Shown piece after piece: positions 52,148-56,437 of a DNA stretch of 64,000 bases. This DNA comes from Pyrinomonadaceae bacterium. GTDB lineage: Bacteria > Acidobacteriota > Blastocatellia > Pyrinomonadales > Pyrinomonadaceae. The stretch is from the NCBI GenBank assembly GCA_030841085.1, contig JAVEDP010000025.1:186001-250000 (forward strand), in the 5' to 3' direction. The position numbers and the translations under genes were made by a program. A model generated the notes under the pieces. It ran no database searches. It was not told where the DNA came from and was given only the letters and a program-made list of their open reading frames with translations. Position 1 is the first letter of the stretch, and the number at the start of each line of letters is the position of its first letter.

Positions 52148-52191
52148 GTTTTCTCTCTTCAATTAATCGTGTTTCGCCGTTCTAGTACCAG

Positions 52192-52218
52192 AACACCAGC
52201 GGCAAAATGTTTGTGGCA
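52192..52218 (-). promoter_or_regulatory. Candidate ECF-type promoter of the large DUF4097 gene
   Basis: On the minus strand TGCCACAA (52218-52211), 13 bases, then GGTGTT (52197-52192), about 45 bases before the ATG at 52147. The same two elements with the same spacing stand before the ECF sigma gene (54926-54952). Confidence 0.6.
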
Positions 52219-52329
52219 GAAAATTCAATGACTTTCGTTTATTAACTGGCGCTTTTGCAGGCAAGCCTAAGCGACAGCCGTCCTGCAACAAACGATGTTG
52301 CGAAACCCGCCGGTTTGCCGCGGCGAGCG

Positions 52330-53442
52330 TTAGTTTCCGGTATCTATTAGGTGGAGTGTTCCGGTGAACGACGCAATCGTGATCAGCGCGTCGCCGTTGC
52401 CATGCCACGCGCTAATGCGACGCAGGCTGTAAAGCGTTTTGAGGACCACAGGCTTTACTTGAATCGTCTTCTGCTGCGGGTCGACGATCACGATGACCGG
52501 TTCCTTCGCATCAGGTGTCGCACCGGAAATAGGCTGAGCGGCGGGCGCGGGCGGAGCCGGAGGCGCTGGAGTTTTCTTCGGCTTGGTGGGCACTGGATCT
52601 TCGATAGTGAGATTCAAGGGAAAGTCGCTAACAACTTCACGATCTCTGGCGACGCGAGCATTGAGCCGGAACGACGAATTCTCGGGCAAACTCAACGTGA
52701 CGTCGCTGCTCGTCGTATTGAAATTGTATCGTCCCTGATGGGCCAGGGGACCGGAAAAATCAATCTTGCCGTTCGCGGTCTTAACGGTTACCAGTTGATG
52801 GTCCACGCCTTCGAGCTCGATGTCGCCGCTAATGGTCGAGGCTTCAAAAGAATCGCTCAGCTCGGTTGGACGCAGGTTTGCCGCAGTTAGCACGCCGCTG
52901 ACAGATTTTATCGCCATGCGGCCCGTTGAATTTGCAACTGCAATCTCCCCGCTAAAACTTACCGCTTCAACCGATCGCGTCGCTTTCTTAATTAAAATAT
53001 CACCCGTCTCCGAGCGCGCAAAAATTGAAGCAACGTCGCTGACATCAATCGTGCCGTCGCCCGTTTGCAAATAAAGCGCGGCGCCGCGCGGAACCATCAG
53101 CTCAACGTCGCCAAAAGCGTCACAGCCGCCCTTCTCTTCCACGCCGATGTGCTTGTCGACCAGCCAAACCAGAACCTTTGCCGCTGCATTCGACGGCATG
53201 CCGGAGTTGGCGCCCTTAAGTTCAATGCGCCCGACTTCGCTTGAGCGAGCGAACACTTCGTTTTTGTCCCACCCGCGCACGGTTACGTTTCCCGAGTCGA
53301 CGCAAATTGAAACCGCGACATTAGGCAGCGCCGCAATTGATCGTTCAATCTTCTGCGTCTCCGCGCGCCCATGCCCATCGGCGTAGACGACACCCGCGGG
53401 CAGCAGAAGAAAAAAACTAATTATGAATACTTTGAACTTCAT
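52330..53442 (-). CDS. DUF4097 beta-helix-like secreted protein
   Basis: A 370-residue protein with a signal peptide (MKFKVFIISFFLLLPAGVVY). The mature part has DUF4097-type strands (VAVSICVDSGNVTVRGWDKN, then LYLQTGDGTIDVSDVASIFA, then DILIKKATRSVEAVSFSGEI). A Pro-rich linker follows (PTKPKKTPAPPAPPAPAAQ), and a C-terminal part (VVLKTLYSLRRISAWHGNGD). It follows the anti-sigma gene by 26 bases and is probably co-transcribed with it. The ATG at 53442 is chosen over a TTG four codons earlier because the signal starts there. Confidence 0.82.
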   Translation of the reverse strand: MKFKVFIISFFLLLPAGVVYADGHGRAETQKIERSIAALPNVAVSICVDSGNVTVRGWDKNEVFARSSEVGRIELKGANSGMPSNAAAKVLVWLVDKHIGVEEKGGCDAFGDVELMVPRGAALYLQTGDGTIDVSDVASIFARSETGDILIKKATRSVEAVSFSGEIAVANSTGRMAIKSVSGVLTAANLRPTELSDSFEASTISGDIELEGVDHQLVTVKTANGKIDFSGPLAHQGRYNFNTTSSDVTLSLPENSSFRLNARVARDREVVSDFPLNLTIEDPVPTKPKKTPAPPAPPAPAAQPISGATPDAKEPVIVIVDPQQKTIQVKPVVLKTLYSLRRISAWHGNGDALITIASFTGTLHLIDTGN

Positions 53443-53468
53443 TATTACTGACAACTCTTACTTCAGTC

Positions 53469-54335
53469 TTATTTGTCGATCACGCGCGCCTCAGCAACGG
53501 TGTTGAGCAAATCTACTTTGCTTTGATAAGCGGAAAACATGAATTCGGTTGCATCGGGATCGTTGGGATTACTCTTAGCAGCGGTCCGCGCCACAGCCAA
53601 AGTGCGATCCACGAAAGCTAAATTGCGCTGGTATTCAGCCTGCACGTCCGGCTTCATCCTGCCCTTGTCCGATTTGATAGTTGAATCCAACTGAGCAATC
53701 GTTTGCAGATAACTACGCTCGCCGGGCAAAAGCTTTACGTGATTTGCGATGCTCTCATTTGGCCGGGACGCGGGGCGCGCGGCAATAGCACTGCCTCGGC
53801 GGCGTTCGTTGGGAACATTGCTCTTTCGTCCGTTCGGTTCTGACGAAGGCGGCACGCTGGTCGCCGGCGGCGCAGTTGTTGGTTCCGGACTGGGGGCGGG
53901 CGACGCCGTCGCGACCAGCGAATCTGTGGTGGACTTCGGCACTGTCTGCCAGCGCATGATGCCCATAATCAAACCAAAGCCAACAATCAACAACAAGCTG
54001 GCGTAACCAAGTGCACGTTGTGGTCGAAACGTAAACAGATCGGAAAGTGATGAAACCCAGCCGCGAACTTTTCCAGCCGGTGCAGCTGCTGCTTCGACAC
54101 GCGCCGATCCGATCGCGGCATCGAGGCGCTGACGCAGACGCTCGCTCGGCACTGCTGTATCGAACTCAGGCGCAAGCGCAGCCGCCAGGACACTGTTTTC
54201 CTGCTCCAGTTGTCGCGCAAGATCGCTGCAGGTTATGCATGAAGCCAGATGAGAAGTCACCTGCTCCACGCGCCGCTCGTGAAGTTCTCCATCCAAATAA
54301 CTTTGCAGAACTTCTTCTGGCAAACACTCTTTCAT
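53469..54335 (-). CDS. Anti-sigma factor with zinc-finger domain
   Basis: A 288-residue inner-membrane anti-sigma factor. It starts MKECLPEEVLQSYLDGELHE, with the zinc-binding zf-HC2 pattern (HLASCITCSDLARQLEQENS). One membrane helix is at about 110-128 (YASLLLIVGFGLIMGIMRW). The periplasmic part has Pro/Ser/Thr-rich linkers and a helical end (SAYQSKVDLLNTVAEARVID). The ATG overlaps the sigma stop (ATGA), and GGAGGCAAGTT upstream is strong, so the pair are co-translated. It is expected to hold the ECF sigma at the membrane. Confidence 0.9.
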   Translation of the reverse strand: MKECLPEEVLQSYLDGELHERRVEQVTSHLASCITCSDLARQLEQENSVLAAALAPEFDTAVPSERLRQRLDAAIGSARVEAAAAPAGKVRGWVSSLSDLFTFRPQRALGYASLLLIVGFGLIMGIMRWQTVPKSTTDSLVATASPAPSPEPTTAPPATSVPPSSEPNGRKSNVPNERRRGSAIAARPASRPNESIANHVKLLPGERSYLQTIAQLDSTIKSDKGRMKPDVQAEYQRNLAFVDRTLAVARTAAKSNPNDPDATEFMFSAYQSKVDLLNTVAEARVIDK

Positions 54336-54904
54336 AACTTGCCTCCGATTTTCCCATACACCCGGGCAAACTCTTTGCGGCCGCGTGCGACCAGACTGCC
54401 GACGTTCGTCTCTTTCACCGACAACGTGTCGGCGATTTCACGATACGAGAGTCCCTGATGTCTCAGCAACAAACAACTACGCATCGGCTCTTTCAACTTG
54501 TCCAACGCGCGCCGCGTCTGCTCGATTTCCACGTTACGGCTGTAATCCTCGTCCGGCGCGGGTGCAAACCAACCTTCGCCCGCCGTGTTCTTATGATATT
54601 CATTGTCGCGCGTCATCGATCGCGTCTTCCCGCGAATCGTGTTGCGCGCTACGTTCAAGGTGACACGCAAAAGCCAGGCGCGCAACAACTCCTCGCCCGG
54701 CTTCGAATTAAGATTACGATAGAGCCGTAGAAAAACTTCCTGCGTAATATCTTCTGCCAGCGCCGCATCGCGAACTACCGAGCACGCCGTGCGAAAAACG
54801 GCCCGGTGATGAAGCGTAAAAGCCTCATCGAAGCTGAGCGGAGGCGCTGCAGTCGCGATTTCGTCAGGCATCAAATTTATTAAGGCTCTGGCTTGTCCGC
54901 TCAT
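54332..54904 (-). CDS. ECF-family RNA polymerase sigma factor
   Basis: A 190-residue sigma-70 of the extracytoplasmic-function type with only regions 2 and 4. Region 2 is LAEDITQEVFLRLYRNLNSK with the -10-reading helix LLRVTLNVARNTIRGKTRSM. Region 4 is LKEPMRSCLLLRHQGLSYRE, IADTLSVKETNVGSLVARGR. The anti-sigma follows with overlapping stop and start. A promoter-like pair TGCCACAA/GGTGTT lies just upstream, consistent with self-activation. It should respond to envelope stress; the signal is unknown. Confidence 0.93.
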   Translation of the reverse strand: MSGQARALINLMPDEIATAAPPLSFDEAFTLHHRAVFRTACSVVRDAALAEDITQEVFLRLYRNLNSKPGEELLRAWLLRVTLNVARNTIRGKTRSMTRDNEYHKNTAGEGWFAPAPDEDYSRNVEIEQTRRALDKLKEPMRSCLLLRHQGLSYREIADTLSVKETNVGSLVARGRKEFARVYGKIGGKL

Positions 54905-54925
54905 TTAAACCGCTCTCAGGAAACA

Positions 54926-54952
54926 AACACCGCAACCGGCGCGCTTGTGGCA
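54926..54952 (-). promoter_or_regulatory. Candidate ECF-type promoter of the sigma gene
   Basis: On the minus strand TGCCACAA (54952-54945), 13 bases, then GGTGTT (54931-54926), 22 bases before the sigma ATG. Same elements and spacing as at 52192-52218. Confidence 0.6.
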
Positions 54953-56179: not shown

Positions 56180-56250
56180 CACGGACTTTAGTCGGTGTTT
56201 CGTAGCAGCCCAGCTGGTCAAATGATTTTTCATGTTGACCAACGCTTTTA

Positions 56251-56437
56251 GAAGGCCCGAAGGGGCGGTATTCAATAGCCATGCCCGTGAGGGCGTGGTT
56301 TGAAAGACTCTTTAAATTTTGAAGGCCAGAAGGGCCGGCATTCGATTTAGTGCCGCACCTTTGGCGCTCATTTCGTACCGTACAGCCATCCACGCCCTCA
56401 CGGGCGTGGCTATTAAATGCCGGCCCTCCGGGCCTGG
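56251..56437. repeat. Inverted repeat between hemE and hemH
   Basis: The left arm (56251-56298, ATAGCCATGCCCGTGAGGGC and flanks) matches the complement of the right arm (56390-56437). A partial third copy (GAAGGCCAGAAGGGCCGGCA) lies at 56321-56340. It fills the gap between the two genes and ends about 25 bases before the hemH ATG. Confidence 0.85.

Follow-up and report, generated by a model that had tools for sequence, protein, structure and literature searches.

ECF41 sigma factors recognize promoters of the form TGTCACA-N16-CGTC in general, and the variant TGTCACA-N16-TGTT has been mapped in B. licheniformis (PMC3426412). A survey of PSP systems mentions in general terms that toastrack genes are linked to a sigma factor, and its authors favour an intracellular location for toastrack proteins (PMC11237479). 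The locus described here lies in a 64-kb window, the whole stretch of DNA analysed, from a Pyrinomonadaceae bacterium, and it resembles the ECF/ZAS pairs SigW-RsiW, SigR-RsrA, and RpoE-ChrR in combining an operon for a sigma factor and an HxxxCxxC anti-sigma factor with a putative autoregulatory promoter. As with several ECF/ZAS pairs, the predicted regulon consists of envelope or exported proteins. Unlike SigW-RsiW, SigR-RsrA, and RpoE-ChrR, this locus has another promoter sequence, and its predicted targets are mostly toastrack DUF4097 proteins. From comparative sequence evidence, we consider it highly probable that two sites in the window serve as promoters for a single stress-type ECF sigma factor that drives its own operon together with a few genes for exported proteins, a predicted circuit that is kept across a whole bacterial family.

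The profiles PF04542, PF08281, and TIGR02937 all matched the sigma factor over their cut-offs, and the protein contains regions 2 and 4 only, in keeping with the length of about 170-200 aa expected of an ECF factor (Table 1). It ends 12 aa past region 4, without a C-terminal extension. Its gene overlaps the anti-sigma gene by 4 bases. For the anti-sigma factor, the Pfam zf-HC2 match (E 7e-4) and the NCBIfam anti-sigma models remained under cut-off; the HxxxCxxC ZAS motif in its N-terminal part is kept in all loci having the gene, and its membrane span was judged by eye from the sequence. A ZAS motif plus a membrane span in an adjacent anti-sigma factor is the arrangement of an ECF/ZAS pair; the zinc-finger ZAS domain would face the cell interior. 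The third gene, encoding a DUF4097 protein, begins 27 nt after the anti-sigma gene, and this gene order is conserved. The sequence-only reading had likewise placed the sigma gene in an operon with an anti-sigma factor and another DUF4097 protein. For the large DUF4097 protein, no Pfam match was obtained by hmmscan at 1e-3, and its NCBIfam LiaG/LiaX matches were weak and under cut-off. The neighbours of the sigma gene are those for the anti-sigma factor, DUF4097, and hemE. We rejected assignment of the sigma factor to ECF41: unlike ECF41 members, this 190-aa protein lacks the defining C-terminal extension, and its gene adjoins one for a ZAS anti-sigma factor, not one of the COE type (carboxymuconolactone decarboxylase, oxidoreductase or epimerase).

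Table 1. Genes and promoter elements of the ECF locus, in window coordinates
Feature	Position	Strand	Basis
ECF sigma factor, 190 aa	54332..54904	-	Pfam Sigma70_r2 + Sigma70_r4_2; NCBIfam sigma70-ECF over cut-off
Membrane anti-sigma factor, 288 aa	53469..54335	-	zf-HC2/ZAS HxxxCxxC followed by a single hydrophobic segment
Exported DUF4097 (toastrack) protein, gene 3 in the ECF operon	52330..53442	-	Pfam PF13349 over cut-off, E 3e-10
Large DUF4097-like exported protein, 646 aa	50207..52147	-	PF13349 over cut-off in genome search
-35 element TGCCACAA, predicted ECF operon promoter	54945..54952	-	Exact match; TGNCA[C/T][A/G]A kept upstream of orthologues with enough upstream sequence
-10 element GGTGTT, predicted ECF operon promoter, separated from the -35 by N13	54926..54931	-	Exact match; orthologues keep GGTGT[T/A] and N13
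Predicted transcription start, ECF operon (G, after T)	54917..54917	-	YR initiator offset in family sites
-35 element TGCCACAA, second predicted promoter	52211..52218	-	Exact match
-10 element GGTGTT, second predicted promoter	52192..52197	-	Exact match; most close relatives with site at equivalent syntenic place
Predicted transcription start, large DUF4097 gene (A, after T)	52183..52183	-	YR initiator offset

The pattern TGCCACAA-N13-GGTGTT occurs in two exact copies on the minus strand of the window: TGCCACAA GCGCGCCGGTTGC GGTGTT at 54952-54926, which ends 22 bases before the ATG of the ECF gene (54904), and TGCCACAA ACATTTTGCCGCT GGTGTT at 52218-52192, which ends 45 bases before the ATG of the large DUF4097 gene (52147). 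The sites are 2.7 kb apart in a single syntenic block, and their 13-nt spacers bear no relation to each other. The identical elements, N13 spacing, positions, and distances to the ATGs reported by the sequence-only reading were thus reproduced exactly, as was its observation that the intervening bases are unrelated. A genome-wide search for the pair, which that reading had proposed, was run with spacers of N11-15 over 4,688,395 bases; it returned these 2 matches and no others, compared with 0 for the reversed-pattern control, a result not at chance level. The pair was absent from all 100 dinucleotide shuffles of the window, and from base composition about 0.03 strict sites would be expected in each genome. 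Given that the pair was spotted by eye in 64 kb, with many motifs implicitly tried, a chance resemblance between two upstream regions had to be considered; the uniqueness of the pair in the whole genome and its independent confirmation in relatives leave that reading a vanishingly small probability, and conservation across the family refutes it.

Sigma orthologues were found in most of the sampled genomes of the Pyrinomonadaceae-like family, the named relatives being Pyrinomonadaceae and Blastocatellia MAGs; in other sampled families, none was found at E<=1e-20 except in G046, where the sigma match is 39% identical and the motif is absent. All ECF orthologues for which the upstream region was long enough to check are preceded by TGNCA[C/T][A/G]A-N13-GGTGT[T/A], many of these relatives being draft MAGs and the closely related genomes not independent of one another. 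Upstream sequence was cut short at L063/L179, which represent the same contig end and lie outside this count. Conservation of the motif extends down to about 47% protein identity, and the motif sits 15-63 nt before the ECF start with N13 constant and variable spacer bases. A fixed spacing with a variable spacer is characteristic of autoregulatory promoters, and we count the conserved -35/-10 pair as the predicted autoregulatory promoter of the ECF operon. Close relatives also keep the synteny, in the order site, ECF gene, ZAS anti-sigma gene, DUF4097 gene, site, large DUF4097 gene. In several same-genus relatives (L173, L175, L176, L178, L179, L180, and L181), the second site is separated from the large DUF4097 gene by a small gene, absent from the window, that encodes about 180-240 aa with a membrane-like N-terminus.

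Across 35 genomes of the family (Pyrinomonadaceae-like Acidobacteriota), computational searching with the strict pattern yielded 67 sites versus 3 reversed-pattern controls, and strict-pattern counts outside the family were near background. N13 predominates among the family sites, with N12 in a handful, and T is allowed at positions 3 and 6 of the -35 element. According to a simple ORF rule, 83 of 104 sites lie at gene starts, compared with 6% for positions chosen at random within these loci. Alignment of 69 non-redundant sites revealed conserved flanks that had not been used in the search, namely an A/T tract preceding the -35 (positions -8 to -3), a pyrimidine at -1, [G][C/T] before GGTGTT, and, in most, T after it. 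If the extra A and GG are counted as part of the spacer, TGYCACA-(A N13 GG)-TGTT has N16, the spacing of ECF41, together with a near-identical -35 (PMC3426412), and the family sites become TG[C/T]CA[C/T]A-N16-TGTT. The closest known promoter is that of ECF41, which this circuit also resembles in having very few predicted targets. The earlier remark that the -10 differs from the CGTC type is correct, but with this geometry a non-CGTC -10 is not unprecedented, as TGTT is used by ECF41 in B. licheniformis (PMC3426412).

Of the 69 non-redundant sites, 54 have a pyrimidine-purine (YR) step 8-9 nt downstream of GGTGTT, compared with about 15 at other offsets (p ~3e-23). The most plausible role of this step is that of transcription start, and the predicted starts in Table 1 are placed accordingly. 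The sequence-only reading had expected initiation about 7 bases after GGTGTT; a conserved initiator does lie close to that point, but its offset is 8-9 nt. These features also bear on whether the pair might instead be the operator of a DNA-binding regulator, since a dimeric regulator could bind two conserved half-elements at fixed spacing. Such an operator is very improbable, as the half-elements do not repeat each other in either direct or inverted orientation, their geometry is that of an ECF -35/-10 pair, the YR initiator is conserved downstream, and a promoter scan found no sigma-70-like promoter in the region. A terminator scan of the same region found 7 candidates versus 5.1 expected, one of which overlaps the ECF promoter itself.

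Real ECF-type promoters could also be read mainly by one or more other ECF paralogues of overlapping specificity, with the present sigma gene merely among their targets. A loose search gave 19 ECF candidates in the source genome, and regulon overlap is frequent among ECF factors, for example SigM/W/X of B. subtilis. The genome G014, from the same genus and 95% complete, speaks against this reading. It is without the sigma gene, the anti-sigma gene, and both neighbouring DUF4097 genes, and the DUF5916 and hemE genes, which flank the block in the source genome, lie about 740 bp apart in G014 (within locus L345, C21:38000-52500). The degenerate pattern has zero sites in its 5.0 Mb; G014 retains other DUF4097 genes, with no site in their flanks. 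Moreover, sites are near background outside the orthologue-carrying family, although many other ECF factors occur there. Together, these observations make reading by other paralogues improbable, even though G014 is a single case of natural loss of the ECF block. A second genome, G008, was rejected as an ECF-less genome with sites because its ECF gene is present, cut by a contig end, and a one-mismatch site lies upstream of it. Family conservation, site placement, and loss with the ECF block support the earlier proposal that the sigma factor reads the pair, and from them we strongly infer that this sigma factor is the reader.

The genes behind the sites encode a coherent set of proteins. Hydrophobic N-termini are found in 57 of 94 downstream proteins (sigma genes included) versus 15%. 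DUF4097 proteins, the main target class, account by Pfam for 26 of the 76 non-sigma downstream proteins, one DUF4097-linked cluster holds 34 of the 76, and a second exported family, 'MSKN...', contributes 10 of the 76; the member of this family in the source genome has no Pfam match. This outcome answers the enrichment check suggested by the sequence-only reading, with sites preceding DUF4097 and other exported-protein genes across the family. In the source genome, a PF13349 search detected three DUF4097 loci, namely the operon gene, the large gene, and C29:28594, the last with TGTCACAA-N13-GGTGTT 62 nt upstream. Together with the two window sites, this places all three detected DUF4097 loci in site-bearing transcription units.

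Weaker sites in the source genome required caution, as candidates with one or two mismatches numbered 13 versus 7 in the control, individually near chance, and at two mismatches the 89 sites were near chance against 63 controls. Because of these counts, weak sites were kept only if homologous genes elsewhere carry clean sites, as do homologues of three target genes: that at C12:92271 (GGTGTC), of the MSKN family; that at C15:328176 (TGTCATGG), for a 120-aa exported protein; and that at C20:100763 (TGTCCTGA), for a TPR/S41-like exported protein. The C20 protein is 80% identical to the product of a G011 gene, for which the ORF rule puts the site at a greater distance upstream. Beyond the window pair, the source genome thus likely holds about four more targets, for a predicted regulon of likely about six transcription units. 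The window pair had been proposed as the first two members; both are supported, but the regulon is likely larger. LytTR response-regulator genes with the promoter were seen at L206 and L210 in two genera, where the sigma factor may feed into a further regulator.

By likeness to ZAS anti-sigma factors, an envelope signal would relieve the membrane anti-sigma factor and set the sigma factor free. The freed sigma factor would bind RNA polymerase and recognize an A/T tract followed by TGYCACAA-N13-GGTGTTT, and transcription would begin at the YR step located 8-9 nt beyond GGTGTT. It would thereby amplify its own operon, encoding the sigma factor, the anti-sigma factor, and a DUF4097 protein, and activate the neighbouring large DUF4097 gene and the third DUF4097 gene, at C29:28594; the secreted 'MSKN' protein, the 120-aa exported protein, and the TPR/S41-like exported protein are probable further targets. 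The toastrack proteins presumably serve an envelope function. As in Lia/PSP systems (PMC11237479), toastrack production would stand under an envelope-linked regulator, but control here would be exerted by an ECF sigma factor and its anti-sigma factor, not by LiaRS. In contrast to the intracellular toastrack favoured in that survey (PMC11237479), many toastrack proteins here have hydrophobic, export-like N-termini. One toastrack protein is nearly always encoded in the sigma operon. It is conceivable, though we regard it as doubtful, that the ECF/anti-sigma pair replaces Lia-type two-component control of toastracks throughout the family and that exported toastracks sense or brake the outer domain of the anti-sigma factor, closing the loop.

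Our literature search, with the 2021 ECF reclassification outside its scope, found no description of this sigma factor, its family, or its regulon; a motif for the group may already appear in that reclassification. The type of circuit is ordinary, and this member is new as far as the literature was searched. The analysis provides a promoter consensus, a predicted start, and a coherent set of targets for an apparently undescribed ECF sigma factor in a Pyrinomonadaceae-like family that is widespread in soil and has seen little regulatory work. It also ties the DUF4097 proteins of these bacteria to one regulatory circuit, so that a single deletion or an anti-sigma knockout in a cultured relative could test their function. 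The apparently clean loss in G014 offers a natural knock-out for expression comparison. A two-copy motif noticed by reading proved confirmable through comparative genomics.

Several minor patterns accompany these sites. Sites of one genome tend to share either C or T at position 3 of the -35 (a clustering as extreme arose in 9 of 100,000 permutations), and with the degenerate -35, genomes with a TGTCA sigma promoter tend to carry TGTCA-type sites elsewhere. Across the regulon, it is as if promoters shift with the sigma factor of the lineage; common descent or base composition could play a part in this clustering. A search for sigma residues covarying with this C/T choice was dropped, as the top columns were mostly outside region 4 and likely reflected phylogeny. 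Sites with a 12-base spacer (L217, L219, L220, L224, and L226) lie upstream of MSKN-family and beta-lactamase-like exported genes, so certain target families may accept N12. At 56240-56430 of the window, in the interval that separates the hemE-like gene from the hemH-like gene, G+C-rich repeats of REP-type appearance stand in opposite orientations (AGGCCCGAAGGGGCGG.. / CCGGCCCTCCGGGCC.., with CCACGCCCTCACGGGC).
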